DNA of 38,684 nucleotides from the NCBI GenBank assembly GCA_017380615.1, contig JAFODQ010000111.1:1-38684 (forward strand), in the 5' to 3' direction. The notes under the pieces are model-generated. The model worked only from the letters and a program-made list of their open reading frames with translations. It was not told where the DNA came from and searched no databases. This DNA is from Clostridia bacterium (GTDB lineage Bacteria > Bacillota > Clostridia > Oscillospirales > Acutalibacteraceae). Position numbers and translations under genes: made by a program. Shown here one piece after another: positions 19,236-38,684 of the stretch (the stretch's first letter is position 1; every line of letters starts with the position of its first letter).

Positions 19236-19243
19236 GTGAGCGT

Positions 19244-19824: not shown

Positions 19825-19828
19825 AACA

Positions 19829-21937: not shown

Positions 21938-21947
21938 GAGAGTTAAT

Positions 21948-22475
21948 ATGAATATTATTCTTAAAAGACGCCAATTGATTCTTGCAGTGCTCGTTGTGGC
22001 TTTAGGTGCTGCTGTGTTTGTTAACTGGTATTATACGGGAAACAGCACACTTTCCGAGGAGGGCACAACAAATGCTGAATATGTGCAGAATCTCGGTGAG
22101 GCAAAGTATGTTAATGCAACTCAGGAGGCAAAACCAACCTTCGAAGAAATGAAATTTGAAAGAAAGAAGAAAAACGATGAGGCTCTTGATAAGCTGAATA
22201 AATCTCTTGAAGCTGCAGGTAAGGGTACAGATGAAGCAAAAAGCATTACAGAATCCATAAATGAAATAACACGCACATCAAAGCTTGAAACAGATATGGA
22301 AACACTTATAAAAGCAAAGATCAATAACGAATGCTTTGTTACAATAACAAAGGAAAGTGCGCAGATTGTTGTGAGTGCTAATGTGCTTAATGAAGCAACT
22401 TCGTTGCAGATTCTTGAAATTATAACCACAAACGCAGATATTCCTGCAGATAAGGTTGTTATGTCGGAGCAATAA
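21948..22475 (+). CDS. spoIIIAH: SpoIIIAH, stage III sporulation ring protein
   Basis: The 175-residue protein starts with a basic head and one membrane helix (about 8-27), then a Lys/Glu-rich helical linker and a C-terminal ring-building domain with NECFVTITKESAQIVV and ADIPADKVVM. In B. subtilis SpoIIIAH docks with forespore SpoIIQ across the intermembrane space. TAGGAGAG lies ahead of the ATG. It is the last gene of the operon, followed by a terminator. Confidence 0.93.
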   Translation: MNIILKRRQLILAVLVVALGAAVFVNWYYTGNSTLSEEGTTNAEYVQNLGEAKYVNATQEAKPTFEEMKFERKKKNDEALDKLNKSLEAAGKGTDEAKSITESINEITRTSKLETDMETLIKAKINNECFVTITKESAQIVVSANVLNEATSLQILEIITTNADIPADKVVMSEQ

Positions 22476-24345: not shown

Positions 24346-24363
24346 AATTTCGTCCTTCAATAA

Positions 24364-24414: not shown

Positions 24415-26868
24415 TTAAAGACCATATTTTTCAATAGCAATTTCTCTCATTTTGTATTTGAGAATCTTACCTGCAGCGTTCATTGGGAATTCATCAACAA
24501 ACATAAAGTATCTTGGCACCTTATGTCTGGCAATTGAAGCATTTCCGTATTCCTTCATTTCATTTTCATCGGCTGTTTCGCCCTTATGAAGGATAACCCA
24601 GGCACAGCATTCCTCGCCATAACGTTCGTCGGGAACGCCAACAATCTGCACATCTCGTACCTTGGGGTTTGTAAGATAGAATTCTTCAATTTCTCTGGGA
24701 TAGAGATTTTCACCACCACGGATAATCATATCCTTAAGTCTGCCGGTGATTTTATAGTAGCCATCGTTTGTTCTGCAGGCAATGTCACCTGTGTGAAGCC
24801 AGCCTTCAGCATCAATTGCCTGTGCTGTTGCTTCAGGCATCTTGTAGTAGCCCTTCATAATGTTAAAGCCACGGGCAACAAATTCACCATTTTCACCATC
24901 GGGAAGATCGAGACCTGTTTCAGGGTCAATAATCTTACACTCAACACCAGGGAATGCGCTTCCTACGGTGTCAACACGGTGGTCAAGATCTTCATTAACT
25001 TCGCCCATGGTACAGCCGGGTGAAGCTTCGGTCTGACCGTAAACTGAAATGATTTCTCGCATGTTCATTTCAACAGAGGCACGTCGCATAAGGTCAGCGG
25101 GACAGTTTGCACCTGCCATGATTCCTGTTCTCATATATGAGAAGTTCGTTTTTGCGAAATCGGGGTGGTTGAACATTGCAATGTACATTGTTGGAACACC
25201 GTTGAAGCAGGTGATTCTCTCATCATTTACACAAGCAAGTGAGGACTTTGGTGAAAAATACGGGATAGGGCAAAGTGTACCACCGTGAGTCATCATAGAT
25301 GTCATTGAAAGCACCATGCCGAAGCAGTGGAACATTGGCACCTGAATCATCATACGGTCGGCAGTTGATAAATCCATTCTGTCGCCGATTGTTTTACCAT
25401 TGTTCACTATGTTACGGTGTGTAAGCATAACTCCCTTCGGGAAGCCTGTTGTACCCGAGGTGTACTGCATGTTGCAAACATCGTCAGGCTTAACAAGTGA
25501 GGCACGTCTGCGCACCTCTTCGCGTGGTATGAGTGCAGAGCGTGATAACATCTGCTCCCAATTAAGGCAGCCGTCCATATCGAAGCCAACAGTAACAACA
25601 TTGCGAAGGAAGGGAAGGTTCTTTGAGTATAATGGTGAGCCGGGTTCAAGGCTTTTGAGTTCAGGACAAAGCTCTTCAATGATTTCCTTGTAGTTGATAT
25701 CCTTGCAATATTCAATCATAACAAGAGTATGAGTATCTGATTGCTTGAGCAGATATTCAATTTCGTGGATTTTATATGCTGTGTTAACAGTAACAAGAAC
25801 AGCACCTATTTTGGTTGTTGCCCAGAAGGTGATGAACCATTGCGGCACGTTGGTTGCCCAGATAGCAACATGGTCACCGGCTTTTACACCGAGGGAGATG
25901 AGAGCAGCAGCGCACTCGTCAACATCACGGCGGAATTGCTCGTATGTTCTTGTGTAATCGAGTGTGGGATATTTAAATGCATACTGGTCAGGGTAAGTTT
26001 CTGCCATTGTGTCAAGCACATCGGAGAAGGTTGCATCAATGACATCATACTTTTTCCAGACAAAAGTACCTGTCTTATCACGATTATAATAAGCACGGTC
26101 GTAGGATTTTTTTTCGCGTCTTAAAGAAGAAAGGTAGTTTGTGAAGTGGGTAAGAACAATGTCTGCATCACTGATTTCCTCGTTCCATGCAGCACAAATG
26201 AAGCCTTCATAGTTTAATGAGGAAAGAGCATTTATTAATTTTTCAACCTCCAAATCACCTTCACCGATTAAAACAGTTTTTCCATCCTTCATATCACCAA
26301 GACGTACATATTTGATATATGCACCAAGGTTTTTGATGGTCGTTTCAGATGTTTCTCCGGCATCAAAATATGTACCTCTTACATTCCATGATGCACCGAT
26401 AGCAGCAGAAGCAAAGTGATTGATGATGCCGATAACCTTTTCGCTTCTTGCAAGTGCACCAACTGTTTCAAAAAGAATGTTAACATCATTTGCCTCGGCA
26501 CGTTTTATTGCTGGAGCAAGTTTATCATCAAGCACATCAAAGGTGGTTTTCTCTTCAGTTCGCACAATAATATTTTCAATACCTGAAGCAGCTGCCATGC
26601 TTACATATTTCTCAACAAGCTCAGGTGTTGTTTCTTCACTTTCAATAGGTGAGGGGAGACGCAAAGCTGAAACACATAGATTTCTGTTAACGAGCTTTCT
26701 TTTGGCGTCTGCAATACGCTCGCGTCTTAAAATGCTATCGTGATGTAAGCTTCTTTCTTTTATGGCATCATAGATTTCAAAGCCCTCAAAACCATAGTCA
26801 AAGGCATAACGGCAAGTGTCAAGAAAGGAGGCTCTGCTCACATTCTTGGTCGAAAAAACGATTTTCAT
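24415..26868 (-). CDS. Fusion: xylose-isomerase-like TIM barrel plus AMP-forming acyl-CoA synthetase
   Basis: The 817-residue protein has two units. Residues 1-250 look like an AP-endonuclease-2/xylose-isomerase TIM barrel (FDYGFEGFEIYDAI, ILFETVGAL, GEGDLEVEKLINALSSLNYEG), with some metal ligands changed: the C-terminal Glu position reads CAAWNEE. Residues about 275-817 are a complete acyl-CoA synthetase of the FadD/medium-chain type with TSGTTGFPKG (470-479), YGQTEAS, WLHTGDIA, GRLKDMIIRGGENLYP and the C-terminal catalytic Lys in AAGKILK. It should activate a carboxylic acid to its CoA ester using ATP. The ATG at 26868 has GAGGAGG, inside the end of the LeuA-like gene, one base after its stop. 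The pair shares T-box 1. Confidence 0.85.
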   Translation of the reverse strand: MKIVFSTKNVSRASFLDTCRYAFDYGFEGFEIYDAIKERSLHHDSILRRERIADAKRKLVNRNLCVSALRLPSPIESEETTPELVEKYVSMAAASGIENIIVRTEEKTTFDVLDDKLAPAIKRAEANDVNILFETVGALARSEKVIGIINHFASAAIGASWNVRGTYFDAGETSETTIKNLGAYIKYVRLGDMKDGKTVLIGEGDLEVEKLINALSSLNYEGFICAAWNEEISDADIVLTHFTNYLSSLRREKKSYDRAYYNRDKTGTFVWKKYDVIDATFSDVLDTMAETYPDQYAFKYPTLDYTRTYEQFRRDVDECAAALISLGVKAGDHVAIWATNVPQWFITFWATTKIGAVLVTVNTAYKIHEIEYLLKQSDTHTLVMIEYCKDINYKEIIEELCPELKSLEPGSPLYSKNLPFLRNVVTVGFDMDGCLNWEQMLSRSALIPREEVRRRASLVKPDDVCNMQYTSGTTGFPKGVMLTHRNIVNNGKTIGDRMDLSTADRMMIQVPMFHCFGMVLSMTSMMTHGGTLCPIPYFSPKSSLACVNDERITCFNGVPTMYIAMFNHPDFAKTNFSYMRTGIMAGANCPADLMRRASVEMNMREIISVYGQTEASPGCTMGEVNEDLDHRVDTVGSAFPGVECKIIDPETGLDLPDGENGEFVARGFNIMKGYYKMPEATAQAIDAEGWLHTGDIACRTNDGYYKITGRLKDMIIRGGENLYPREIEEFYLTNPKVRDVQIVGVPDERYGEECCAWVILHKGETADENEMKEYGNASIARHKVPRYFMFVDEFPMNAAGKILKYKMREIAIEKYGL

Positions 26869-26869
26869 C

Positions 26870-28258
26870 TTATGCCTCCTCGAATACAATTTTGTTCAAA
26901 GCATTGATATATGCTCTGATGCTTGCAGCAACGATGTCTGTTGATGTACCGTTACCTGAATAAAGCTTTCCGTTGTTACGGAGTCTTACAAGGGCAGAGC
27001 CGAGGGCTTCTTTGCCTTCTGTCACTGACTGTACCTGGAAGTCATCAAGCTCATAGTGATGTCCGATGCACTGTTCAATTGCGCGGAAGACAGAGTCGAT
27101 AGGACCATCTCCGTTACTTACACCGCAAATGATTTCGTCATTGCACTTTAATGTAACCTGGGACATAGAGCTTGACATATTGCTGCTTGTGGTTGTGTAG
27201 GTTTCAAAGTGATATGTTGAAGGAGCCTGCATAGCGGAACTTGCAATAACAGCCTCAAATTCCTTGTAGCCAACGGCACCCTTCTTCTCGCAAATCTGCT
27301 TGAGTACCTTGTGAACATTACCAACATCGGAATCGGATAATTCGTAGCCCAAAACAGCAGCAGCCTGAGCAACCTGAGCAACTGTGGAGTCAGAGTCAAT
27401 AAGAATCTTTTTCCCCTCACTCACTGTCTTTTCGGTATCATAAGCATCGTGGTTGATGCTTGATACCATATCATCAATGCTTGCATGGATTTTGGTGTTG
27501 TTCAATTTGATTTCTGCATCAAGCTGTGCACCGCAAGCAATCATAGCATCTGAAAGCTCGCCGGTAAGAAGCACATTCTTGCCAACCATTGCACACTTGA
27601 TACCATCAGCACCACATCTGATTGCAGAAAATGCTGAAGCAACTGCCATATTGATGCGGTCTGAAACCTGTACATACACAGGTATGCTTACAGCGTCTTT
27701 TACCTTTGAAACCAAATTTGCAATGTCATCGGGAGTTGAAACACCTGCATCGTCACAGATGGTAACTATGTCTGCGCCACAAGCCTCAGCTTCCTTTGCT
27801 GCAGCAATAAGGAAATCCTCATCTGCTCTTGTTGCATCAAGTGCTGAAAATTCAACATCAGCACATAATTCTTTCGCCTTTTTAACAAGCTCTGCGATTT
27901 TCTCAAGCATCTTTGCCTGTTTGAGGTGATATGTATATTCCATCTGAATTGTGGAAACGGGAAGCTCTACCTGAAGACGAGGCAGCCTTGCTTCCTTGAT
28001 ACAATCCCAGGCAATATCAACCTCTTCGCAGCTGAAACCAACAGGGATTGCAAGAACAGCATTCTGTACATTCTGTGCAATAGTTTTGTAAATGATTTTA
28101 TCCTCGCGAGGGGATTTTACTGCAGGAAATTCAATTACATCTGCACCGAGTTTATCTGCACAGTTTGCAATAGCTGCTTTTTCACGGAAAAGCAAGGACA
28201 CATCTTTATCCTCTGAAATCTTTTTATGTGTGATGTCTGAAATTCTGATTTGCTTCAT
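26870..28258 (-). CDS. LeuA-like protein lacking catalytic motifs but keeping the leucine regulatory domain
   Basis: The 462-residue protein aligns with 2-isopropylmalate synthase: TIM barrel (1-290) with CADVEFSALDATRADEDF (132-149), and C-terminal LeuA dimer domain (about 330-462) ending in STDIVAASIRAYINALNKIV, almost the canonical sequence. The catalytic parts are missing: DTTLRDGEQ is replaced by SDITHKK (7-13), the metal-binding HCHDDLG by QVSDRIN (197-203), and NGIGERAGN by CAMVGKNVL. It cannot bind metal in the usual way, so isopropylmalate synthesis is unlikely. It may be a leucine sensor or a new activity. It is first in an operon with the TIM/acyl-CoA synthetase fusion, under T-box 1. 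It could also be called a divergent HMGL-like protein. Confidence 0.8.
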   Translation of the reverse strand: MKQIRISDITHKKISEDKDVSLLFREKAAIANCADKLGADVIEFPAVKSPREDKIIYKTIAQNVQNAVLAIPVGFSCEEVDIAWDCIKEARLPRLQVELPVSTIQMEYTYHLKQAKMLEKIAELVKKAKELCADVEFSALDATRADEDFLIAAAKEAEACGADIVTICDDAGVSTPDDIANLVSKVKDAVSIPVYVQVSDRINMAVASAFSAIRCGADGIKCAMVGKNVLLTGELSDAMIACGAQLDAEIKLNNTKIHASIDDMVSSINHDAYDTEKTVSEGKKILIDSDSTVAQVAQAAAVLGYELSDSDVGNVHKVLKQICEKKGAVGYKEFEAVIASSAMQAPSTYHFETYTTTSSNMSSSMSQVTLKCNDEIICGVSNGDGPIDSVFRAIEQCIGHHYELDDFQVQSVTEGKEALGSALVRLRNNGKLYSGNGTSTDIVAASIRAYINALNKIVFEEA

Positions 28259-28305
28259 ACTGAAAACTCCTTTTGATTTTCGCTTGTTACTTTCATTGTT
28301 GCCTT

Positions 28306-28583
28306 GAGAAAAACGAAAGCCCGCCCCAAAGCTTCATATTTGCTTTGAGACGGGTGTAAATTACTTAACACTCGCGGTACCACTCAAATTGCAGATTAAA
28401 ATCTGCCACCTTATCGAAGTCTGTCAACTTCTATGCACTTACGTAGCAAACACGGGGCGCCCTACACATTTTCACTTCAGGTTTCCTGCTCAGAAGGGAG
28501 AGGCACAAGCTCTATATAGTCAGTTCACACCAACCACTGACTCTCTGGATATATCCGTCTTGCCCATTCTTCTTCAACGCTTT
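28306..28583 (-). ncRNA. T-box leader 1 (probably leucine) for the LeuA-like operon
   Basis: On the minus strand it has the Stem I AG-bulge/distal motif (AGAGAG followed by GTGGTTGGTG), the T-box core TGGTACCGCG (28382-28373) preceded by TTTGAG, and a terminator stem (28354-28342 with 28332-28320) followed by a U-run. Folding Stem I by hand with the rule 'GA(A/G)-codon-purine-helix', the 3' strand reads GAG-CTT-G-TGCC opposite GGGCA, giving specifier CUU (Leu). TGGT in the core calls for discriminator A73, as in tRNA-Leu. Uncharged tRNA should prevent termination and turn on the two genes. Confidence 0.9.
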
Positions 28584-28601
28584 GAATATTTAATTTTCAT
28601 T

Positions 28602-28630
28602 ATATTACTATGCTTAACAGAAATTGTCAA
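28602..28630 (-). promoter_or_regulatory. Promoter of T-box leader 1
   Basis: On the minus strand a perfect TTGACA (28630-28625) and TAATAT (28607-28602) are 17 bases apart, about 20 bases upstream of the leader. Confidence 0.75.
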
Positions 28631-28735
28631 GCATCAAAAGTGATAATTTAATATGTTTTATAAATATGCATAAAATAATATAGCATAAATTCCTTAATTT
28701 TGTGTGGTTTGTTTTCGGAAAGTATTGTCAGGCTA

Positions 28736-28764
28736 TTGACATATAAATTTAATTGTGATAATCT
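28736..28764 (+). promoter_or_regulatory. Promoter of T-box leader 2
   Basis: TTGACA (28736-28741) with a 17-base spacer to TAATCT (28759-28764); GATAAT at 28757-28762 is a second option for -10. The roughly 100-base gap between the divergent promoters 1 and 2 shows no gene. Confidence 0.65.
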
Positions 28765-28789
28765 TTACTAAATTAAAAATATCACAAAT

Positions 28790-29051
28790 AAAAGCTGTGA
28801 CGAAGACGGTTGAAGATTGTGTCTTTCAGAGAGTCGGTGGTTGCTGTGAAGCCGGTAGATAGATTTTCAAAACCTATCCCTTCTGAGCTGAAGAGCTGAA
28901 CATTACAGTAGGCTTCTTCCGAATGTGCTGCGTTAGTGCAACGGGGTTGATAGACCTTAAGAGGCGAGCTTTTGCTTGCAATTTGAGTGGTACCGCGGAT
29001 AATTTTTATTCGTCTCAAAGAGAAACCGTGTTTCTTTTTGAGATTTTTTTA
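28790..29051 (+). ncRNA. T-box leader 2 (possibly phenylalanine) for the first sensor-ligase fusion
   Basis: It has AGAGAG followed by GTGGTTGCTG (Stem I distal part), CTTCTGAGC at the end of Stem I, the core TTGAGTGGTACCGCGG with TGGTACCGCG at 28988-28997, and a 14-bp terminator stem (29013-29026 with 29030-29043) with CGT loop and a T-run. The Stem I specifier region reads GATTTTCAAAACC opposite GGTT; TTC-A (Phe) is the likeliest reading, but TTT, TCA or an ATA further up are not excluded. TGGT fits tRNAs with A73 (Phe, Leu, Ile, Val) and argues against Trp or Gly. Confidence 0.9.
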
Positions 29052-29096
29052 TTTGTGCATTTTTGATTTCATATTTCCTTTGAAAGGGTGAATTTA

Positions 29097-31367
29097 ATGA
29101 ACAAATCATATGAAAACAAATTGGTTGAGGTTGCCGAGCGAATTAAGGAGCTCAGGGATATATACAGTCTCACTGATGTTGAAATGGCAGAGAAAACAGA
29201 GGTTAGTCTTGAGGAATATCGTGCTTATGAAAATGGCACCGATGATATGCCGTTCTCTTTTGTTCACAAATGTGCACTTGCATTTGGTGTTGAGCTTACA
29301 GATCTTCTTGAGGGTCAGAGTGCGAAGCTTACCACATACAATGTAACTCGAAGAGGCAAGGGTCAGACTACCGCAAACGAAGAAGGTATTCTCATTCAGA
29401 ACCTTGCTCCGAAGTTCAAGAATAAGCTTGCTAATCCATATTGGGTTAAGTATGAATATTCAAGTGAAAATCAGAATAAACCAATCGAGCTTGCAACTCA
29501 TTCAGGTCAGGAGTTTGACCTTGTTATCAAGGGTGCTCTTAAGGTTCAGATTGGTGATCACATTGAAATTCTTCACGAAGGAGACAGCATTTTCTATAAC
29601 AGCTCTATCCCTCATGGTATGATTGCTGTTGATGGTGAGGATTGTCTCTTCCTTGCAATGGTTATGGCTGAGGATGAGCTAGAGGCTGATAACCACATGA
29701 GCAGCGTCAACACAGGTAAATCTGCAACAGAGGAAAAGCTTGTTTGCGATAAATTCATCACAACCACACTGGATGAAAATGGTGTTTGTAACGGAATTGA
29801 ATTTCATAATGAGGATAAATTCAACTTTGCCTTTGATGTTGTTGATGAAATTGGTAGAAAATATCCGGAAAAGCTTGCAATGATTCATATCTCTGATGAT
29901 ATGACAGAGCGCAGATTCACCTACAAAGAAATCAAAGAATGTTCTTCTCAGGCAGCAAACTATTTCAAATCTCTCGGTATCAAAAAAGGCGACAGAGTCC
30001 TTCTTGTTCTCAAAAGAAACTATCAGTTTTGGTTCGCTATTCTTGGACTTCATAAGCTTGGTGCTGTTGCGATTCCCGCAACAAATCAGCTTGTTGTTCA
30101 TGATTATGAATATCGCTTTAATTCAGCAGGTGTAAGTGCAGTAGTGGTTACTGCGGACGGTAAGGCAACAGATTACATTGACGAAGCGCAGAAGAATTGT
30201 CCGAGTCTTAAAACAAAGATTGTTGCAAATGGCTCAAAAGATGGTTGGCACAATTTCGACGAAGAGTTTGGTCTGTTCAGTCGCAGATTTGTCCGCACAG
30301 AGGATTCAGCTTGTGGCGATGATCCGTTGATTATGTTCTTTACATCAGGCACAACGGGTTATCCTAAAATTGCAACTCACAGCCATAAATATCCTCTTGG
30401 TCACTTCATTACAGCTAAGTATTGGCATTGTGTTCAGCGTGATGGTGTTCACTTCACAATTTCAGAAACCGGTTGGGGTAAAGCACTCTGGGGTAAGCTC
30501 TATGGTCAATGGCTTTGTGAAAGCTGTGTATTTGTATATGACTTTGAGCGTTTTGATGCCTCAAAGATACTTCCGATGTTTGCAAAATATAACATCACAA
30601 CATTCTGTGCACCACCAACAATGTACAGAATGCTTATTAAGCAGGATATTTCGCAGTATGACTTATCCTCCATTGTTCATGCAACCACAGCAGGTGAGGC
30701 TCTTAACCCTGAGGTTTTCAAGCAGTTTGAAAAATCAACAGGCTTAAGAATATATGAAGGCTTCGGTCAGACCGAAACAACTCTTTCAATTGCAAACCTC
30801 AATGGCACAAAAATTAAAATCGGCGCAATGGGTAAACCATCACCACTTTATGATATTGATATCGTTGATCCCGATGGCAGACCGGTTGCAGATGGTGAAA
30901 CCGGTGAAATTGTTGTCAGAATTGATGAGAAGAAGCCTTGTGGTCTGTTCCTTGGCTACTATGCTGACGAGGAAAAGACAAGTGAAGTAATGCACGATGG
31001 TCTTTATCATACCGGCGATACTGCATGGCGTGATGAGGATGGTTATCTCTGGTATGTCGGCCGTGTTGATGACGTTATCAAATCCTCAGGCTACCGTATT
31101 GGACCATTCGAGATTGAAAATGTTATTATGGAGCTTCCGTATGTTCTCGAGTGTGGCGTTTCGGCTGCCCCTGATGAGGTCCGTGGTCAGGTTGTTAAGG
31201 CAAGCATTGTTCTCACAAAGGGCACAGAAGGCACCGAGGAGCTTAAGAAGGAAATTCAGGATTATGTTAAGAAGAACACAGCACCTTACAAATATCCAAG
31301 AATTGTTGTCTTCAGAGATGAGCTTCCAAAAACAATCAGTGGTAAGATAATGAGAAATAAGCTTTAA
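29097..31367 (+). CDS. Fusion: XRE helix-turn-helix, cupin, AMP-forming acyl-CoA synthetase (copy 1)
   Basis: The 756-residue protein has an XRE DNA-binding domain (about 8-72), a cupin (about 110-192; THSGQEF with H135/E139, and IPHGM with H173), and a full acyl-CoA synthetase (about 240-756): TSGTTGYPK (416-424), EGFGQTETT, YHTGDTAW, GYRIGPFEIE and the catalytic Lys in ISGKIMRNK. The ligase part is of the ACSM/medium-chain type, which includes a methanogen enzyme acting on 2-methylbutyrate; branched or aryl acids are plausible substrates. XRE-cupin proteins normally regulate genes in response to a small ligand, so this looks like a sensor-enzyme. The ATG at 29097 follows GAAAGGGTG. It is under T-box 2, and no strong terminator follows. 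Confidence 0.88.
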   Translation: MNKSYENKLVEVAERIKELRDIYSLTDVEMAEKTEVSLEEYRAYENGTDDMPFSFVHKCALAFGVELTDLLEGQSAKLTTYNVTRRGKGQTTANEEGILIQNLAPKFKNKLANPYWVKYEYSSENQNKPIELATHSGQEFDLVIKGALKVQIGDHIEILHEGDSIFYNSSIPHGMIAVDGEDCLFLAMVMAEDELEADNHMSSVNTGKSATEEKLVCDKFITTTLDENGVCNGIEFHNEDKFNFAFDVVDEIGRKYPEKLAMIHISDDMTERRFTYKEIKECSSQAANYFKSLGIKKGDRVLLVLKRNYQFWFAILGLHKLGAVAIPATNQLVVHDYEYRFNSAGVSAVVVTADGKATDYIDEAQKNCPSLKTKIVANGSKDGWHNFDEEFGLFSRRFVRTEDSACGDDPLIMFFTSGTTGYPKIATHSHKYPLGHFITAKYWHCVQRDGVHFTISETGWGKALWGKLYGQWLCESCVFVYDFERFDASKILPMFAKYNITTFCAPPTMYRMLIKQDISQYDLSSIVHATTAGEALNPEVFKQFEKSTGLRIYEGFGQTETTLSIANLNGTKIKIGAMGKPSPLYDIDIVDPDGRPVADGETGEIVVRIDEKKPCGLFLGYYADEEKTSEVMHDGLYHTGDTAWRDEDGYLWYVGRVDDVIKSSGYRIGPFEIENVIMELPYVLECGVSAAPDEVRGQVVKASIVLTKGTEGTEELKKEIQDYVKKNTAPYKYPRIVVFRDELPKTISGKIMRNKL

Positions 31368-31396
31368 TGTAATATTTTTGTTCAATAAAAATACTA

Positions 31397-31425
31397 TTGA
31401 CTTTTTCAAATAATTGTGGTATTCT
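31397..31425 (+). promoter_or_regulatory. Promoter of T-box leader 3
   Basis: TTGACT (31397-31402), a 17-base spacer and TATTCT (31420-31425), located after the stop of the first ligase. Confidence 0.65.
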
Positions 31426-31439
31426 TTGAGAAATTGAAT

Positions 31440-31702
31440 ATTAAAGGCGTTGAAGAAAAGGGCACAGCTTGCTGAGCTTCAAGAGAAATGACGGTTGGTG
31501 CAAGTCATAGCAAGGCTTCTGTAGTTTGTAGTTTCTGAGCCGGGAGGAAGAAAGGCATTTGCTTAGTAGAACCTCTCCGTGATTGCTGCGTAAAGGCATA
31601 GAGGTTGATTGACCTCGAGAGTGGCAGGTTTTTCTGCAATTTGAGTGGTACCGCGGGTTATATTTAACTCGTCTCAAAGAATATCTTTGGGACGAGTTTT
31701 TT
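31440..31702 (+). ncRNA. T-box leader 3 for the ligase / oxidoreductase / aminotransferase operon
   Basis: It has the Stem I distal part (AGAGAAATGACGGTTGGTG), TTTCTGAGC, the core TTGAGTGGTACCGCGGG with TGGTACCGCG at 31646-31655, and a 15-bp terminator stem (31666-31680 with 31684-31698) followed by six T. The Stem I 3' strand (AGCAAGGCTTCTGTAGTTTGTAG) can be aligned in several ways (TTT before G, GTA before G, CTT), so I do not assign an amino acid. TGGT again requires a tRNA with A73. It should control the seven genes to 38387. Confidence 0.9.
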
Positions 31703-31731
31703 GTTTGTCCCGCACACAGGAGGAAAAATTG

Positions 31732-34020
31732 ATGGATAAAATGACGGGTCTTGATTTTAAAATCAAAGAAATGGCCGCCAGAATCAGAGAGCTTCGTGAA
31801 ATTGAGGGCTATACAGCTGCACAGATGGCTGACAAAACAGGTGTTTCCGAGGCTGAGTACATAGCTTGTGAAAATGGTGAAAGTGACCTTAACTTTGCAT
31901 TTATTTATCGTTGTGCGCTTGCATTTAACGTGGATGTTACAAGCATTATTGAGGGTAGCACACCAAAGCTCACAAACTATGTTTATACAAAATCCGGTAA
32001 GGGTCAGAAGATCGAAAAGGCTCACGGAATGACTTATTTCAACCTTGCTGCAAAGTTCAAAAACAAGATTGCAGAGCCTCTTTATGTTGAGGCTACATAC
32101 AGCGAGGAAGATCAGAATAAGGATATTGAACTCACCTCCCACGATGGTCAGGAGCTCGATATTGTTATCGAGGGTAAGCTTAAGGTTCAGGTGGGTGAGC
32201 ATTCAGAGATTCTCGGTCCCGGAGACAGCATTTATTATGATTCACTCACTCCTCACGGAATGATTGCCGTTGACGGAAAAGATTGTCTTTTCTATGCTAT
32301 CGTTCTTAACCCTAATGGTGAGCCTATTCCTGAGCTTCAGACAGCCAAGCTTGTTAAGGACACCAAAGCAGGTGTTAAGGATACAAAAGACCGTATATAT
32401 AAAAAGTACGTTGATGTTACCGAGAATGAAAACGGCACACCAACCTCAATTACATTCAAAAACACAGAGAAATTCAATTTTGCATTTGATCTTGTTGATG
32501 AGCTTGCAGATAAAGAGCCTGAAAAGCTTGCAATGCTTCACATTTCAAAGGATAAAACTGAAAGAAGAATTACCTTTAAGGATGTTAAAAAGAACTCAGC
32601 TCAGGCTGCAAACTATTTCAAGTCACTCGGTATCAAAAAGGGTGACAAGGTTATGTTGGTTCTCAAGCGTCATTATCAGTATTGGTATGCAATGATTGGT
32701 CTTAATAAGCTTGGTGCTATTGCAATTCCTGCACCGAATCAGCTTCAGGAACACGATTTTGAGTATCGTTTCCAGGCTGCAGGTGTTAAGGCTATTCTTT
32801 GCACGGCAGATGGTGATACAGCAAATCAGGTTGATCTTGCTTCCAAAACCTGTCCGGCACTTGAACATAAAATCATTGTTAATGGTGAGAGAGAAGGCTG
32901 GAGGAACTTCGATGAAGAAAGAGTTCTTTTCAGCACTCACTATGAAAGAACTGCAGATGCTCCGGGTGGCGACGACCTTATGCTCATGTTCTTTACATCA
33001 GGCACAACAGGTTATCCGAAGATTGCAGCTCATAACTATAAATATGCTCTCGGACATTTCCATACAGCAAAGTACTGGCATAATGTTGACCCGGAAGGTC
33101 TTCATTTCACAATATCTGATACAGGCTGGGCAAAGTCCATGTGGGGCAAGCTTTATGGTCAGTGGTTTTGTGAGGCAGCCACATTCGTGTATGATTTTGA
33201 CAGATTTGATGCTGCTGATATTCTTCCGATGTTTGCAAAGCACCATATCACAACCTTCTGTGCACCACCAACAATGCTCAGAATGATGATAAAGCAGGAT
33301 ATCTCAAAATATGATTTCTCATCTGTTAAGCATATGACAACAGCAGGTGAGGCTCTTAACCCGGAGGTTTACCGTCAGTTTGAAAAGGCAACAGGTCTTC
33401 AGATTCTTGAGGGCTTCGGTCAGACCGAAAGCACAATGATTATCGGTAACATGACAGGCGCCGATCATAAAATTGGTTCAATGGGTAAGCCTGCACCAAT
33501 CTATGATGTTAAGCTTGTTGATGCAGATGGCAACGAGGTTCCTGTTGGTGAAAATGGTGAAATTGTTGTTAATGTTAAAGATGGTGCACCATGTGGCTTG
33601 TTTACCGGGTACTATAACGATGAAGCCAAAACAAAAGAAGTATGGCACGATGGCTTCTATCACACAGGCGATGTTGCTTGGCAGGATGAGGATGGCTTCT
33701 ATTGGTATGTTGGTCGTGTTGATGATGTTATCAAGTCATCAGGCTATCGTATCGGACCATTCGAAATAGAAAGTGTTATCATGGAGCTTCCTTATGTTCT
33801 TGAGTGTGGTGTTTCAGCTGCACCCGACGAGGTCCGTGGTCAGGTTGTTAAGGCAAGCATTGTGCTTGTTAAGGGCACCGAGCCAACGGATGAACTCAAG
33901 AAGGAAATTCAGCAGTATGTTAAGGATAAAACAGCTCCTTATAAGTATCCACGAATAGTTGTGTTCAGAGATGAGCTTCCAAAAACTACAAGTGGTAAGA
34001 TTATGAGAAACAAATTATAA
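31732..34020 (+). CDS. Fusion: XRE helix-turn-helix, cupin, AMP-forming acyl-CoA synthetase (copy 2)
   Basis: The 762-residue tandem paralogue of the preceding ligase has the same domain order and long identical blocks (e.g. VDDVIKSSGYRIGPFEIE). XRE domain about 15-77, cupin about 115-197 (TSHDGQEL, TPHGM), ligase about 250-762 with TSGTTGYPK, EGFGQTEST, FYHTGDVAW and TSGKIMRNK. The N-terminal sensor regions differ more than the ligase parts, suggesting similar chemistry under different signals or acids. The ATG at 31732 has AGGAGG eight bases upstream. It is the first gene of an operon with the MinD-like ATPase, 2-oxoacid:ferredoxin oxidoreductase and aminotransferase, with gaps of 25 bases or less. 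Confidence 0.88.
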   Translation: MDKMTGLDFKIKEMAARIRELREIEGYTAAQMADKTGVSEAEYIACENGESDLNFAFIYRCALAFNVDVTSIIEGSTPKLTNYVYTKSGKGQKIEKAHGMTYFNLAAKFKNKIAEPLYVEATYSEEDQNKDIELTSHDGQELDIVIEGKLKVQVGEHSEILGPGDSIYYDSLTPHGMIAVDGKDCLFYAIVLNPNGEPIPELQTAKLVKDTKAGVKDTKDRIYKKYVDVTENENGTPTSITFKNTEKFNFAFDLVDELADKEPEKLAMLHISKDKTERRITFKDVKKNSAQAANYFKSLGIKKGDKVMLVLKRHYQYWYAMIGLNKLGAIAIPAPNQLQEHDFEYRFQAAGVKAILCTADGDTANQVDLASKTCPALEHKIIVNGEREGWRNFDEERVLFSTHYERTADAPGGDDLMLMFFTSGTTGYPKIAAHNYKYALGHFHTAKYWHNVDPEGLHFTISDTGWAKSMWGKLYGQWFCEAATFVYDFDRFDAADILPMFAKHHITTFCAPPTMLRMMIKQDISKYDFSSVKHMTTAGEALNPEVYRQFEKATGLQILEGFGQTESTMIIGNMTGADHKIGSMGKPAPIYDVKLVDADGNEVPVGENGEIVVNVKDGAPCGLFTGYYNDEAKTKEVWHDGFYHTGDVAWQDEDGFYWYVGRVDDVIKSSGYRIGPFEIESVIMELPYVLECGVSAAPDEVRGQVVKASIVLVKGTEPTDELKKEIQQYVKDKTAPYKYPRIVVFRDELPKTTSGKIMRNKL

Positions 34021-34044
34021 TTCAAGTTATGGAGGTCGATTAAG

Positions 34045-34707
34045 ATGCAGCATAAAAGAATAACACTGTTTGCTGGGCACTATGGTAGTGGCAAAACAAA
34101 CATTGCAGTTAATTATGCAATGCATCTTAAAGCCCTCGGTGAAAATGTTGTTGTTGCTGACCTTGATATAGTTAACCCGTATTTTCGAACAAGAGATAGT
34201 CTTGAGGATTTTGAGAAAGCCGGCATTCGGCTTATTTCATCAGAGTTTGCTTCATCGAATGTGGATTTACCGGCACTTCCTCAGGATGTTTATTCAATTC
34301 TTGATAATCCCACAGAATGTGCTATAATGGATATCGGTGGCGATGACAGAGGTGCCTATGCACTTGGTAGATATGCAGATTCTATCAAGTCAGAAAACAA
34401 TTACGAAATGCTTTTCATTTTCAATAAATATCGTCCTCTTACTCCTACTGCACAGGATGCGGCAGAGATTATGGCAGAAATTGAAAATGCATGTCACATT
34501 AAATTCACAGCAATCGTAAACAACTCCAATCTTGGTGGGCTTACGACAGCTGAGGATATATTGAGCTCGGTAGGGGAAACCCAAAGGCTCAGCGAGATAA
34601 CAGGTCTTCCTGTTAAAATGACTTCGGTCAGAAGTGATTTAGTTAATAATCTCAACGGAAAAGTCGAAAACCTCTTTCCGCTGACTTTACAAAAAAAGAT
34701 AGTATAG
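34045..34707 (+). CDS. MinD/ParA-like P-loop ATPase (SIMIBI class)
   Basis: The 220-residue cytosolic protein has Walker A GHYGSGKT (11-18), switch I-like VVVADLDIVNPYFRTRD (35-51) and Walker B AIMDIGGDDRGA (about 92-103). It lacks the extra signature Lys of true MinD/ParA (KGGxGKT), so dimer-type activation may differ. It belongs to the CobQ/CobB/MinD/ParA group and I know of no proven role. Its position between an acyl-CoA ligase and ferredoxin oxidoreductase subunits suggests a job in assembling the oxidoreductase (e.g. Fe-S cluster insertion, as for Mrp/NBP35 relatives), which is inference. GGAGG precedes the ATG. Confidence 0.75.
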   Translation: MQHKRITLFAGHYGSGKTNIAVNYAMHLKALGENVVVADLDIVNPYFRTRDSLEDFEKAGIRLISSEFASSNVDLPALPQDVYSILDNPTECAIMDIGGDDRGAYALGRYADSIKSENNYEMLFIFNKYRPLTPTAQDAAEIMAEIENACHIKFTAIVNNSNLGGLTTAEDILSSVGETQRLSEITGLPVKMTSVRSDLVNNLNGKVENLFPLTLQKKIV

Positions 34708-34717
34708 GGTGAGGAAA

Positions 34718-34924
34718 ATGGCAAAAGTAACATTTGCAGAAAATGTATGCAAGGGTTGCGGTTTATGCGTAACTGCTTGTCCCAAAAAGATTGTGGAGCT
34801 TGACTCTGCAAAGCTCAATGCAAAAGGGCATCATCCTGCTCATTGTGTTGATGAGAGTCAGTGCATAGGTTGTGCATTCTGTGCAACAATGTGTCCTGAC
34901 TGTGCAATAACTGTGGAAAGGTAA
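34718..34924 (+). CDS. 2[4Fe-4S] ferredoxin-like (delta) subunit of the 2-oxoacid oxidoreductase
   Basis: The 68-residue protein has two complete cluster motifs, CKGCGLCVTACP and CIGCAFCATMCP. It is the electron-transfer subunit that links the oxidoreductase's internal electrons to external ferredoxin. The ATG at 34718 follows GGGTGAGG; a GTG at 34709 overlaps this site. It lies ten bases after the ATPase stop and ten before the alpha subunit, matching the delta-alpha-beta-gamma order of four-subunit enzymes (vorD in some naming). Confidence 0.88.
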   Translation: MAKVTFAENVCKGCGLCVTACPKKIVELDSAKLNAKGHHPAHCVDESQCIGCAFCATMCPDCAITVER

Positions 34925-34934
34925 GGTGAAAAAA

Positions 34935-35999
34935 ATGGGTGAAAAAGTTTTAATGAAAGGTAATGAAGCTATCGCCGAATCTGCTATCAGAGCAGGCTGT
35001 ATGCACTATTTCGGTTATCCCATTACCCCTCAGACAGAAATTGCTGCTTATATGGCAAAGCGTATGCCAAAGGTAGGTGGCGTATTCCTTCAGGCAGAAA
35101 GTGAAATCGCTGCAATCAATATGGTTCTTGGTGTTGCTGCCACAGGCAAACGAGTAATGACATCATCTTCAAGCCCAGGAGTTTCTCTCAAGAGCGAAGG
35201 TATCTCATACATAGCAGGTAGCGATGTTCCTGCTCTTATTGTTAATGTTCAGCGTGGTGGCCCGGGTCTCGGTGGTATTCAGCCTTCACAGTCTGACTAT
35301 TTCCAGGCAGTCAAGGGTGGCAGCCATGGTGATTTCAAGAAGGTTGTTCTTGCTCCTGCATCAGTTCAGGAAATGGCAGACCTTACAGCAACAGCATTTG
35401 ATCTTGCAGATAAGTACAGAGTGCCTGCAATGATTCTTGCTGATGGTACACTCGGTCAGATGATGGAGCCTGTTGAGCTTCCTGATTCAGCTCCCAAAGC
35501 ATTTGATAAGCCATGGGCACTCACAGGCACAAAGTGTCAGAGAAAGCATAATATCTGCAATTCTCTCTATCTCAAGCCTGAAGAATTAGAGAAAACAAAC
35601 TTCGAGCGCTTTGCAAGATACAAGGAAATTGAAGAAAACGAGGTTCTCTTTGAAGAATATCTTATGGATGATGCAGAAATCTGTGTTGTTTCATTTGGTA
35701 TTACAGCTCGTGTAGCAAAGAATGCAATTGTTGAAGCAAGAGCAAAGGGTATCAAGGTTGGTATGATTCGTCCAATCACTCTCTGGCCATTCCCTGAAAA
35801 GGTTTTGAGAGCCGCAGCAGATAAGTGCAAGGCATTCCTTTCAGTTGAAATGAATATGGGTCAGATGATTGAGGATATCAAGCTTGCAACAGAGTGCAAG
35901 AAGCCTGTTTACCTTTGCAACCGCACAGGTGGTATGATTCCTTCACCTGAAGAGGTTCTTGCAAAGATTGTTGAAATCAACGAAGGAGGCGACAGATAA
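34935..35999 (+). CDS. vorB: 2-oxoisovalerate-type ferredoxin oxidoreductase, alpha subunit (VorB)
   Basis: The 354-residue subunit pairs with the TPP-binding subunit to interconvert a 2-oxoacid plus CoA with an acyl-CoA, CO2 and reduced ferredoxin. FGYPITPQTE (26-35), FLQAESEIAAINMVLGVAA and TSSSSPGVSLKSEGISYIAG are hallmarks of this subunit; the last resembles the clostridial proteins named VorB closely. Substrate preference (branched, aryl or 2-oxoglutarate) cannot be fixed by sequence alone; the aminotransferase neighbour favours branched-chain 2-oxoacids. The ATG at 34935 follows AAGGTG. The stop overlaps the beta start (TAATG). Subunit letters differ between databases. Confidence 0.88.
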   Translation: MGEKVLMKGNEAIAESAIRAGCMHYFGYPITPQTEIAAYMAKRMPKVGGVFLQAESEIAAINMVLGVAATGKRVMTSSSSPGVSLKSEGISYIAGSDVPALIVNVQRGGPGLGGIQPSQSDYFQAVKGGSHGDFKKVVLAPASVQEMADLTATAFDLADKYRVPAMILADGTLGQMMEPVELPDSAPKAFDKPWALTGTKCQRKHNICNSLYLKPEELEKTNFERFARYKEIEENEVLFEEYLMDDAEICVVSFGITARVAKNAIVEARAKGIKVGMIRPITLWPFPEKVLRAAADKCKAFLSVEMNMGQMIEDIKLATECKKPVYLCNRTGGMIPSPEEVLAKIVEINEGGDR

Positions 36000-36757
36000 T
36001 GGCAGTAGTATTTGAAAAATCAAAAGTATTGACCGATGCACCTCTCCATTATTGCCCCGGTTGTACACATGGTATCATTCATCGTCTTGTTGCTGAAGCT
36101 ATTGAGGAGTTAGGCATTGAGGGCAGAACAATTGGTGTTGCACCTGTTGGATGCTCAGTTATGGCTTATGATTACTTCACAACAGACTTTATTCAGGCAC
36201 CTCACGGCAGAGCTCCTGCTGTTGCCACAGGTGTTAAGCGTGCAGACCCTGAGAACAACATTGTTTTCACATATCAGGGAGACGGTGACCTTGCAGCTAT
36301 CGGTACTGCAGAAACAGTGCACGCAGCTGCTCGTCGTGAAAATATTACAGTTATTTTCGTAAACAATGCAATTTATGGTATGACAGGTGGTCAGATGGCT
36401 CCAACAACACTTCCCGGTCAGGTTACACAGACATCACCTTACGGAAGAGATGTTGAGACAGTTGGTTACCCGGTAAAGGTTTGCGAGCTTCTTTCAAATG
36501 TTGATGGTGCAGCTTACCTTGAGCGTGTTGCAGTTAATAACCCTGCAAATGTTAAAAAGGCAAAGAAGGCTATCAAGAAGGCTTTCCAGAATCAGATTGA
36601 TGGCAAGGGCTTCTCTCTTATTGAGGTTGTTTCAACTTGTCCCACAAACTGGGGCATGACACCAGAGAAGGCTCTCAAGTGGCTTGAGGATAATATGCTT
36701 CCTTACTATCCACTTGGTGTTTATAAAGATATCTATGCAGAGGAGGAGGCAAAATAA
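35999..36757 (+). CDS. 2-oxoacid:ferredoxin oxidoreductase, beta (TPP-binding) subunit
   Basis: The 252-residue subunit carries the catalytic thiamine diphosphate. CPGCTHG (19-25), VGCSVMAYDYF and the TPP/Mg motif GDGDLAAIG (94-102) with the following NNAIYGMTGGQMAPTT are complete. In the reductive direction this site would add CO2 to an acyl-CoA-derived carbanion. Start and stop overlap the alpha and gamma genes by one base each, indicating equimolar coupled translation. In some naming schemes it is vorA. Confidence 0.9.
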   Translation: MAVVFEKSKVLTDAPLHYCPGCTHGIIHRLVAEAIEELGIEGRTIGVAPVGCSVMAYDYFTTDFIQAPHGRAPAVATGVKRADPENNIVFTYQGDGDLAAIGTAETVHAAARRENITVIFVNNAIYGMTGGQMAPTTLPGQVTQTSPYGRDVETVGYPVKVCELLSNVDGAAYLERVAVNNPANVKKAKKAIKKAFQNQIDGKGFSLIEVVSTCPTNWGMTPEKALKWLEDNMLPYYPLGVYKDIYAEEEAK

Positions 36758-37290
36758 TGAGTGCGTGTAATATACTTTTTGCCGGCTTCGGTGGTCAGGG
36801 TATCCTTTTTGCAGGTAAATTCGTTGCATATAAGGGTCTTCTTGAAAACAAGCAGGTTTCATGGCTTCCTTCATACGGTCCTGAGATGCGTGGCGGTACA
36901 GCAAACTGTAGTGTTATCGTAAGTGATGAGCCAATCGGCTCACCAATCGTTGGCAAACCGGATGTTCTTGTTGCAATGAACCTTCCATCACTTGATAAGT
37001 ATGAAAATGAGGTTGTTTCAGGCGGTAAGATTTTCATTGATTCAACACTCATCACCCGTAAGGTTGAGCGAACAGATGTTGATGTTTTCTATATCCCTGC
37101 AACAGAGATTGCGAATGAAAAGGGTATGAGCACCCTTGCAAATATGATTATCACAGGCAAGCTTCTCAAGGAAGTTCCGATGATTGGCTTTGATGGTATT
37201 GATGCACCTCTCTCAAAGGTTGTTTCAGCCCGTCACCAGGATCTTCTGGAGGTTAACAAGACAGCTCTCAAACTTGGCTATGATTATTGA
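36757..37290 (+). CDS. 2-oxoacid:ferredoxin oxidoreductase, gamma subunit
   Basis: The 177-residue subunit has FAGFGGQGILFAGK (8-21), WLPSYGPEMRGGTANC and a C-terminal GYDY, the standard POR gamma domain, which completes the CoA-binding part of the complex. It overlaps the beta stop by one base and ends 20 bases before the aminotransferase. Together with the three genes before it, it forms a complete four-subunit enzyme (vorC in some naming). Confidence 0.9.
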   Translation: MSACNILFAGFGGQGILFAGKFVAYKGLLENKQVSWLPSYGPEMRGGTANCSVIVSDEPIGSPIVGKPDVLVAMNLPSLDKYENEVVSGGKIFIDSTLITRKVERTDVDVFYIPATEIANEKGMSTLANMIITGKLLKEVPMIGFDGIDAPLSKVVSARHQDLLEVNKTALKLGYDY

Positions 37291-37310
37291 TTGAAAAGAG
37301 GTTATTTTCA

Positions 37311-38387
37311 ATGAGCTATAATTTTAAGATTGAAAAAACAACAGCACCTAAGGCAAAGCCTGCCGATGAAAGCAAGCTTGGCTTCGGTAAAATCTTCACT
37401 GACCACATGTTCATTATGAACTATGATGAGGGTCAGGGCTGGCATGATGGCAGAATTGTTCCTTACGGTCCACTTCAGCTTGAGCCGTCAGCAATGGTTT
37501 TCCACTATGCACAGGAGCTTTTCGAGGGTCTCAAGGCATATAGAATTGCAGACGGAAGCATTCAGCTTTTCCGTCCGCAGAAGAACATTGAAAGAATGAA
37601 CAACACCTGTGACAGACTTTGTGTTCCTCGCATTGACCCTGATTTGGCTCTTGCAGCAATCAAGGCAGTTGTTGATGTTGATAAGGATTGGGTTCCTCAC
37701 AATGATGGTACATCACTTTACATTCGTCCATTCATCATTGCAACAGACGCATTCCTTGGTGTTCATGCTTCTCACAGCTATATTTTCTGCATCATTCTTT
37801 CACCTGTTGGCTCATACTATGCAAATGGTATGGACCCTGTAAAGATTTTCATTGAGAGAGAATATGTTCGTTGCGTTAAGGGTGGCACAGGTATCGCCAA
37901 GTGTGGTGGTAACTACGCTGCATCTCTTATTGGTCAGGAAAAAGCAGATAAGCTTGGCTATGCACAGGTTCTGTGGCTCGATGGTGTTGAGAGAAAGTAT
38001 ATCGACGAGGTTGGTGCGATGAATGTTTTCTTTGTAATTGACGGCGTCGTTATCACACCTTCTCTTGAAGATGGTAACATTCTTCCCGGTGTTACAAGAG
38101 CATCTTGTATAGAGGTTCTCAAGGCTAATGGCTACAAGGTTGAAGAGAGAAAGCTTTCAATCGATGAGGTTAAAGAGGCTTACAAGGCAGGCAAGCTCAC
38201 AGAATCATTCGGCACAGGCACAGCAGCTGTTATTTCACCTGTTGGTGAATATATTGACGGTGATGAACACCTTGTTATCAATGATTCCAAGATTGGTCCT
38301 GTTGCTCAGTTCCTTTATGATGAACTCACAGGCATTCAGTGGGGCAAGAAGGAAGATAAGAATAACTGGATTGTTAAGGTTAACTAA
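37311..38387 (+). CDS. ilvE: Branched-chain amino acid aminotransferase
   Basis: The 358-residue class IV aminotransferase has PLP Lys197 in AKCGGNYAASL, the N-terminal FEGLKAYR, YIRPFI, and LEDGNILPGVTR, as in eukaryote-like BCATs. It transfers an amino group between glutamate and the 2-oxoacids of Val, Leu and Ile. The ATG at 37311 follows AAGAGG; an earlier in-frame codon at 37287 overlaps the gamma stop. As the last gene of the T-box 3 operon it completes a carboxylic acid to acyl-CoA to 2-oxoacid to amino acid route if run reductively. Aromatic 2-oxoacids are also possible substrates. Confidence 0.92.
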   Translation: MSYNFKIEKTTAPKAKPADESKLGFGKIFTDHMFIMNYDEGQGWHDGRIVPYGPLQLEPSAMVFHYAQELFEGLKAYRIADGSIQLFRPQKNIERMNNTCDRLCVPRIDPDLALAAIKAVVDVDKDWVPHNDGTSLYIRPFIIATDAFLGVHASHSYIFCIILSPVGSYYANGMDPVKIFIEREYVRCVKGGTGIAKCGGNYAASLIGQEKADKLGYAQVLWLDGVERKYIDEVGAMNVFFVIDGVVITPSLEDGNILPGVTRASCIEVLKANGYKVEERKLSIDEVKEAYKAGKLTESFGTGTAAVISPVGEYIDGDEHLVINDSKIGPVAQFLYDELTGIQWGKKEDKNNWIVKVN

Positions 38388-38464
38388 TCCTGATAAATCA
38401 AGAGATTTTCTCTGTTTTCACTGTGCCAACGGTGTAGTGCATCAAAATTAATTTATCCCATAAG

Positions 38465-38501
38465 AAACCCCTCACAGATTTTGAATCTGCGAGGGGTTTT
38501 T
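38465..38501 (+). terminator. Rho-independent terminator after ilvE
   Basis: A 16-base arm (38465-38480) pairs with 38484-38499 with one mismatch (A74/C90 position) and a TTG loop; T-run to 38501. It ends the T-box 3 operon. Confidence 0.88.
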
Positions 38502-38542
38502 AATATAATCAAAGCTCAATAAAATAATTGTTGTTGTCAAGA

Positions 38543-38684
38543 GGTCCACCGATTCAGGCTCGCTACAAAGAACTTATTAATGATAAAAAATACCTTGAAG
38601 AGTGCATGAAGATGGGTGCCGATTTGGCAACACGAATCTCTCAGCGAACACTCGATAAGGTTATGAAGAAAGTCGGCTTTTATC
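38543..38684 (+). pseudogene. Fragment resembling the C-terminus of tryptophanyl-tRNA synthetase
   Basis: An open frame that continues past the window edge reads GPPIQARYKELINDKKYL, then MGADLATRISQRTLDKVMKK. This fits the last 45 or so residues of bacterial TrpRS (typically ...PIQxRYxEL...GAxxAxxxAxxTLxxVxxxxGF). An in-frame TAA lies at 38525-38527, and no start codon with a ribosome binding site, signature motif or ATP-binding part precedes it. It therefore looks like a 3' remnant left by recombination, not a gene. The part beyond 38684 is unseen, and short length limits certainty. Confidence 0.5.

Follow-up and report, generated by a model that had tools for sequence, protein, structure and literature searches.

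Why are genes for acyl-coenzyme A (acyl-CoA) ligases placed behind T-box leaders, the RNA elements of amino acid biosynthesis operons? The question is raised by a stretch of 38,684 nucleotides (the window, analysed at its full length), contig JAFODQ010000111.1 in the draft genome (1.97 Mb, 91% complete) of an uncultured gut bacterium of the Clostridia, family Acutalibacteraceae. Here, T-box leaders precede two fused acyl-CoA ligases, ACS1 and ACS2, as well as a gene pair for a LeuA-like protein and a third ligase, ACS3, while the ACS2 unit continues into a VorB-type 2-oxoacid:ferredoxin oxidoreductase and a branched-chain aminotransferase (Table 1). We propose that the locus encodes a dedicated, amino-acid-matched and starvation-switched pathway in which isobutyrate, 2-methylbutyrate and isovalerate are turned into valine, isoleucine and leucine, respectively, and put the probability of this reading at roughly 0.86. 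The gene content, the leaders with their codons, the covarying pocket residue and the gene losses reported below come directly from computation.

Specifier codons of the T-box leaders

The window leaders have the layout that is shared by T-boxes of amino acid biosynthesis operons (RF00230), i.e. a Stem I with specifier, an antiterminator and a terminator, whereas their targets, acid-CoA ligases and an oxidoreductase, differ from the usual ones. A sequence-only reading of this DNA had described three T-boxes, each controlling an acyl-CoA synthetase, in the range 28306-38501. The three T-boxes could be confirmed, and the isoleucine and valine leaders indeed precede ligases, but the leucine leader first heads the LeuA-like gene, and the range given leaves out this gene as well as ACS3. 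The synthetases are ligases as described, with the refinement that the two on the plus strand are fusions, in which an N-terminal helix-turn-helix (HTH) and cupin domain is followed by an AMP-forming ligase (Pfam).

T-boxes were detected with the Rfam covariance model RF00230 (gathering score 93 bits), and the specifier was read as the triplet 7 nucleotides ahead of AGC at the foot of Stem I. This spacing rule was calibrated on T-boxes of phenylalanine (UUC), threonine (ACC) and tryptophan (UGG) genes in the same genome; it fails at the alanine T-box with its 8-nucleotide spacing, and the specifier of the aspartate T-box was left unread. The genes behind these calibration leaders were identified by eye for phenylalanine, threonine, alanine and aspartate and by NCBIfam for trpB. 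Two overlapping sets of relatives were used, namely 56 stretches, taken from 150 family genomes, in which relatives of the fusion lie (first set) and 80 loci of a named collection, the best 80 of at least 562 confirmed stretches (second set). An automatic caller, without any hand-set specifier, searched for the T-box core by a regular expression next to ACS1, ACS2 or LeuA-like homologues. Exact duplicates were taken out, leaving 205 distinct leaders with 200 readable specifiers; by an ungapped test, only 2 of the 200 read leaders have a near-identical earlier partner.

The specifiers of the window match the amino acids of the pathway, leucine, isoleucine and valine, and this match is kept in the relatives. 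All 76 ACS1-type leaders read AUC (isoleucine). Valine is specified by 89 of 96 ACS2-type leaders (GUA 79, GUC 9, GUG 1) and isoleucine (AUC) by the other 7, and 26 of 28 LeuA-like leaders read leucine (CUC 22, CUG 4), the two deviating ones (L053, L149) having CUC as second choice. Within the ACS2 and LeuA-like groups the codons thus vary synonymously in the called register. As a control, the register was shifted by 1-3 bases with the leaders grouped by gene, because grouping by called amino acid makes the zero shift uniform by construction. The commonest amino acid then falls from 89 to at most 80 of 96 among the ACS2 leaders and from 26 to at most 23 of 28 among the LeuA-like leaders.

Table 1. 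Features of the branched-chain cluster in the window, ordered by position.
Feature	Position	Strand	Evidence
Amidohydrolase_2 protein, possibly last gene of the leucine unit	23551-24360	minus	Pfam 120 bits; short gap to ACS3
ACS3, acyl-CoA ligase with N-terminal xylose-isomerase-like triose-phosphate isomerase (TIM) barrel, proposed isovaleryl-CoA ligase	24415-26889	minus	Pfam AMP-binding 314 bits, AP_endonuc_2 42 bits
LeuA-like protein, 462 residues, probable pseudoenzyme	26870-28258	minus	Pfam LeuA_dimer 107 bits, HMGL-like 99.7 bits
T-box leader, leucine specifier CUC at 28498-28500	28343-28586	minus	Rfam 98.7 bits, above gathering; 7-nucleotide spacing
T-box leader, isoleucine specifier AUC at 28876-28878	28788-29020	plus	Rfam 113.2 bits, above gathering
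Terminator of isoleucine T-box	29012-29044	plus	Terminator scan
ACS1, HTH-cupin-acyl-CoA ligase, pocket glycine codon 30477-30479, proposed 2-methylbutyryl-CoA ligase	29097-31367	plus	Pfam; NCBIfam MbcS 441 bits; 3etc 618 bits (best solved relative)
Promoter-like site TTGACT-17-TATTCT, just 5' of valine T-box	31397-31425	plus	Consensus match only
T-box leader, valine specifier GUA at 31528-31530	31441-31679	plus	Rfam 82.3 bits, E = 1.1e-16, below gathering
Terminator of valine T-box	31666-31698	plus	Terminator scan
ACS2, HTH-cupin-acyl-CoA ligase, pocket alanine codon 33130-33132, proposed isobutyryl-CoA ligase	31732-34020	plus	Pfam; NCBIfam MbcS 441 bits; 3etc 620 bits
P-loop nucleoside triphosphatase (NTPase), CbiA/MinD-like	34045-34707	plus	Pfam 24.4 bits, just below cut-off
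2x[4Fe-4S] ferredoxin-type (delta) subunit	34709-34924	plus	Pfam Fer4 matches, open reading frame
VorB, alpha subunit of 2-oxoacid:ferredoxin oxidoreductase	34926-35999	plus	NF005507 555 bits, cut-off 399
Beta (thiamine pyrophosphate, TPP) subunit	35999-36757	plus	TPP_enzyme_C 81.6 bits; PorB_KorB 121 bits, below cut-off
Gamma subunit	36757-37290	plus	POR 113.6 bits
Branched-chain aminotransferase, IlvE type II	37287-38387	plus	NF009897 497.6 bits vs 307; TIGR01123 417 vs 250

A pocket residue that follows the specifier

The best NCBIfam family of both fused ligases is MbcS (NF047394), the equivalog cut-off of which is 850 bits, i.e. ACS1 and ACS2 are relatives and not members of this family. 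MbcS from Staphylococcus aureus and MacsMa from Methanosarcina acetivorans (3ETC) belong to the same ligase family as ACS1 and ACS2, which differ from them by the HTH-cupin fusion, the existence of isoleucine- and valine-linked versions, the T-box control and a score of about half the MbcS cut-off. According to the accessible parts of the respective papers, MbcS uses 2-methylbutyrate and isobutyrate well and isovalerate very poorly (PMC10026030), while MacsMa favours 2-methylbutyrate (PMC10455477).

The two versions of the fusion can be told apart by the residue that follows a GW pair. It is alanine in 83 of 83 valine-specified ligases and glycine in 80 of 81 isoleucine-specified ones (exception L069), a count that leaves out 8 truncated open reading frames. 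Among 517 catalytic columns in 68 ligases with a read leader, 5 of them assigned manually from the leader sequence, it is the sole column with a valine/isoleucine overlap below 0.1 (0.02; next best 0.15). Alignment to a solved acetyl-CoA synthetase, which reads GWVT here, places this residue at the middle position of the 'WIT' motif, and the accessible part of PMC8383264 describes this motif as enclosing the acyl chain in fungal acetyl-CoA synthetases. 3ETC carries glycine at the aligned position. It makes sense that alanine would occur in those ligases which are expected to take the smaller acid.

When the tree is built from the HTH-cupin part, for which 66 of the 68 rows were used, the valine and isoleucine labels form a single clean split with support 100/99. 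The tree of the catalytic domain requires 4 changes of the valine label, at least 3 of which are forced by well-supported branches. The simplest reading would be that the tandem copies swapped their catalytic domains but each retained its leader, its HTH-cupin type and its pocket residue; repeated change is the alternative. At four loci (L094, L095, L096, L098) two neighbouring genes encode the HTH-cupin part and the ligase separately, which suggests that the fusion arose from adjacent genes.

The apparent exchange of catalytic domains also bears on the possibility that amino acids are made, but that the T-box identity is no guide to the acid, the ligases being broad and the leaders only balancing pools. 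Gene conversion of this kind between the isoleucine and valine arms would speak for it, as does the acceptance of more than one acid by MbcS and 3ETC (accessible parts of PMC10026030 and PMC10455477). However, for 163 of the 164 ligases that could be read the pocket residue agrees with the specifier, and it does so through the forced label changes; hence, we regard such loosely matched ligases as unlikely.

Proposed shared downstream enzymes in the valine unit

Behind ACS2, the claim of the sequence-only reading that the unit comprises a complete four-subunit oxidoreductase and a branched-chain aminotransferase holds, with the addition of a P-loop protein inside. VorB passes its subfamily cut-off and all four subunits are present, the beta and gamma subunits scoring under narrower NCBIfam cut-offs, and the aminotransferase passes both curated cut-offs for IlvE type II. 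Among 72 loci that have both a VorB and a KorB homologue, the ferredoxin gene is found in 71, KorC in 68 and IlvE in 59, contig ends cutting some of the stretches. The P-loop NTPase gene, which sits between ACS2 and the ferredoxin gene and for which no function suggests itself, is present in 71.

The sequence-only reading had also claimed that this unit has no internal terminator. The terminator scan of positions 28200-38684 gave 7 hits against 7.8 +/- 2.6 in shuffled sequences; two of them correspond to the long T-box terminators, and the hits within the valine unit are weak. The unit is closed by a hairpin at about 38466-38501, rich in G+C and with a run of T residues, which is visible by eye but was not listed by the scan.

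Apparent loss of the textbook branched-chain routes

IlvC (PF01450) and IlvD (PF00920) have no match in the source genome or in its congener G057, while they are present in 85 and 91 of the 150 family genomes, respectively, and in 14 of 14 controls each. For the LeuD family, the matches in the source genome and in G057 are under the cut-off, which is passed in 90 of the 150 genomes. The sole Aconitase_C match of the source genome is an aconitase adjoining isocitrate dehydrogenase, both recognised by eye.

These losses are associated with the module across the family. In 23 of the 150 genomes at least one ligase is of the valine type by our own classification, and IlvC is missing in 20 of these 23 versus 45 of 127 others (Fisher test, p 4e-6), IlvD in 18 of 23 versus 41 of 127. 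The LeuA-like gene occurs in 34 of the 150 genomes, including all 23 with a valine-type ligase, and LeuD is missing in 31 of these 34 versus 29 of 116 others (p 2e-12). The expectation of the sequence-only reading that ilv/leu genes would be missing where the cluster occurs is therefore upheld for IlvC and IlvD with valine-type ligases and for LeuD with the LeuA-like gene, but not for genomes that have only isoleucine-type or other non-valine versions. We hence dropped the idea that the fusion as such goes with the loss of IlvC, which is true of the valine-type genomes and fails in the 25 others discussed below.

One locus stands apart in this comparison. Contig G148:C31 (L043) comes from another genus and a genome that keeps IlvC, IlvD and LeuD, and its plus-strand genes are 80-97% identical to those of the window; for 7 of 8 genes it is closer to the window than the congener G057, while its LeuA-like and ACS3 proteins are only 43-56% identical. 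This likeness suggests recent transfer or a mixed assembly.

The set could also run in the oxidative direction, converting amino acids via 2-oxoacids and acyl-CoA to acids with a gain of ATP and reduced ferredoxin. VorB-type enzymes are reversible and act in the amino acid fermentation of archaea, which is in favour of this idea. However, control by uncharged tRNA would induce a catabolic set when its substrate is missing, the ligases are of the AMP-forming family, which consumes ATP, and the module accompanies the loss of a biosynthetic route. We consider oxidative use highly improbable.

The leucine unit and its LeuA-like protein

The LeuA-like protein shares the HMGL-like and LeuA_dimer domains with 2-isopropylmalate synthase LeuA; it reaches 243 bits of the 532 bits required by the curated LeuA cut-off. 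Where the solved synthases 3ewb, 3eeg and 3rmj have the RDGEQ-type and HxH motifs, the protein carries other residues. None of 14 LeuA-like proteins keeps the metal-binding Asp (Glu in L088) or either His of the HxH motif, and the Arg next to the Asp is lost in 12 of 14 (kept in L059 and L089). These 14 are all LeuA-like proteins of more than 380 residues from the window and the 56 stretches of the first set. A role as a working isopropylmalate synthase was rejected, because the metal ligands are lost. Unlike LeuA, the protein moreover occurs mostly in genomes without LeuD. Its LeuA_dimer domain, a regulatory domain of the leucine-binding type, passes Pfam clearly (cut-off 24.9 bits), and 41 of 65 invariant columns fall in the regulatory domain (own count, 13 sequences). 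Since the metal ligands are lost and the regulatory domain is kept, the LeuA-like protein is probably a leucine sensor.

ACS3 belongs to a ligase family different from that of ACS1 and ACS2; against NCBIfam NF009233 it reaches 667 bits, under the cut-off of 832. A separate ligase family in the leucine arm would fit the poor use of isovalerate by MbcS. Full-length homologues (more than 700 residues) of the TIM-barrel-ligase fusion were found in 7 first-set loci, the window included.

Proposed pathway

Our model consists of three arms, each of which would be turned on by the uncharged tRNA of the amino acid that it makes. In the isoleucine arm, the AUC T-box would control ACS1 and thereby the conversion of 2-methylbutyrate to 2-methylbutyryl-CoA; in the valine arm, the GUA T-box would control ACS2, which is proposed to convert isobutyrate to isobutyryl-CoA; and in the leucine arm, the CUC T-box would control ACS3 acting on isovalerate to give isovaleryl-CoA, with the catalytically dead LeuA homologue probably sensing leucine. 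A shared VorB-type enzyme is then predicted to perform reductive carboxylation (acyl-CoA + CO2 + 2 reduced ferredoxin to 2-oxoacid), followed by the shared aminotransferase encoded in the valine arm, on which, together with the oxidoreductase, the isoleucine and leucine arms would rely. The three-arm module would stand in for the IlvC/IlvD/LeuCD routes in the source genome. In this model we infer which acids are used, in which direction the oxidoreductase runs, and that the LeuA-like protein and the HTH-cupin domains act as sensors. The branched-chain reading is favoured because the specifiers, the pocket residue, the loss of IlvC, IlvD and LeuD, the best-matching ligases and the VorB and IlvE assignments agree, and the same lines of evidence support the earlier claim of biosynthesis from branched acids.

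Several observations weigh against this model or narrow it. The valine leader of the window and 5 of 8 homologous leaders examined in relatives score under the Rfam gathering threshold, which the other three (L045, L046, L048) reach. The ACS1 leaders are equally uniform at a shift of +1 (serine in 76 of 76), i.e. codon variation does not fix their register, and therefore the isoleucine reading rests on the spacing rule. The search for T-box cores by regular expression misses degenerate T-boxes, several loci have no visible leader, and of the 5 unreadable leaders among 205, 2 belong to L209, a divergent locus. The MbcS matches of ACS1 and ACS2 fall far short of the curated cut-off, and isovalerate as the substrate of ACS3 is suggested by nothing but the T-box and the LeuD association. 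With the source genome being 91% complete, the gene absences partly rest on the congener G057 (97%). The valine-type genomes G056, G133 and G148 retain IlvC, IlvD and LeuD, and in 25 genomes with the fusion or the split pair and no valine-type ligase, 3 of which have no T-box found, there is no tie to the loss of IlvC (13 of 25, p 0.23) or IlvD (10 of 25, p 0.56). Finally, the Fisher tests for gene loss ignore phylogeny.

That the ligases instead supply branched-chain acyl-CoA primers for membrane fatty acids, the role of their best NCBIfam match MbcS in S. aureus (accessible part of PMC10026030), is very hard to reconcile with amino-acid-specific T-boxes and with IlvE in 59 of the 72 VorB and KorB loci beside ACS2; a side flow of branched acyl-CoA into lipids is possible.

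Beyond the three-arm model, we tentatively suggest, at slightly less than even odds, that each arm has two sensing layers, the T-box and a dedicated sensor (the dead LeuA in one case, the HTH-cupin domains with the ligases as regulators in the others), that an aromatic parallel exists in the phenylacetate-ligase unit, and that the replacement system depends on acids from neighbours.

Aromatic units and other loci

The sequence-only reading had also named phenylacetate as a substrate. The window does not serve it, and candidate aromatic units are found elsewhere in the genome. On G000:C111 (L101:5299-9280), a T-box with the specifier UAC (tyrosine) heads a ligase, IorA (715 bits vs 651) and an IorB-like protein, a unit that could possibly make tyrosine from 4-hydroxyphenylacetate. 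On G000:C59 (L102:3081-4843), a T-box heads a phenylacetate-CoA-ligase-like gene (531 bits vs 646) and an ACT-domain pair; its specifier is UUC (phenylalanine) at 8-nucleotide spacing or UCC/UCA (serine) at 7. By analogy, both units look like the same idea applied to aromatic amino acids. PheA and TyrA matches are retained in the genome, and therefore these units would be at most supplementary.

Among 30 fetched loci of the tyrosine-unit ligase, only 5, the own copy included, have a T-box core within 1.5 kb; at 15 of the other 25 Rfam found no T-box either, where a leader further upstream would escape. The phenylacetate ligase likewise has an upstream T-box in 5 of 30 fetched loci, again including the own copy, and at a sixth locus a T-box core lies about 0.7 kb beyond the match end. 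A conserved aromatic branch was rejected, as such leaders are rare in the relatives examined.

Two further observations concern other parts of the genome. On G000:C65 (L104) a tryptophan-specified T-box lies ahead of trpB (NCBIfam) and trpA (by eye), and the genes at 17860-22475 of the window resemble, by eye, the spoIIIA sporulation operon.

Distribution and relation to known physiology

At E <= 1e-60, 69 of the 291 genomes of the class have a match to residues 1-330 of the ACS2 fusion, spanning 23 families by our own count of the matches listed. Among the best 80 named loci, the record titles of 41 name a ruminant or other herbivore host (goat, sheep, deer, buffalo, yak, cattle, reindeer or horse), and no other host was seen in the remaining titles (both counted by eye).

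Work on rumen bacteria since the 1960s has established that leucine, isoleucine and valine are built from branched volatile acids, and this use of branched acids proceeds by reductive carboxylation. A 1962 paper in J. Bacteriol. on the conversion of isovalerate to leucine was reportedly authored by Allison. In the accessible part of PMC7356843, the references of which include the 1962 paper, the precursors in rumen fermentation are given as isobutyrate for valine, 2-methylbutyrate for isoleucine, 3-methylbutyrate for leucine and phenylacetate for phenylalanine. The window would be alike in using isobutyrate, 2-methylbutyrate and isovalerate as precursors of valine, isoleucine and leucine, but it differs in having an amino-acid-matched T-box and a ligase for each arm, whereas the accessible descriptions of the rumen physiology contain no dedicated gene set. 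The words ferredoxin, acyl-CoA and CoA ligase are missing from the main texts of two surveys of T-boxes or RNA regulons (PMC2494555, PMC3766115), and a literature search, with most subscription journals outside its reach, found nothing on such a gene set. Hence, as far as searched, the chemistry is known and the dedicated genetics is new.

Implications

The genetic signature described here would make it possible to predict from sequence which uncultured gut bacteria make amino acids from branched acids. If the model is true, the specifier codon and one pocket residue would predict the acid for each ligase, and species that depend on cross-feeding would become predictable as well. Moreover, it would tie the supplementation of feed with branched acids to defined genes and would allow single-residue tests of ligase specificity. 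The conserved dead enzyme related to LeuA and the fused HTH-cupin domains would be likely new amino acid sensors. Finally, if true, the replacement system would make its host bacteria dependent on acids released by their neighbours.

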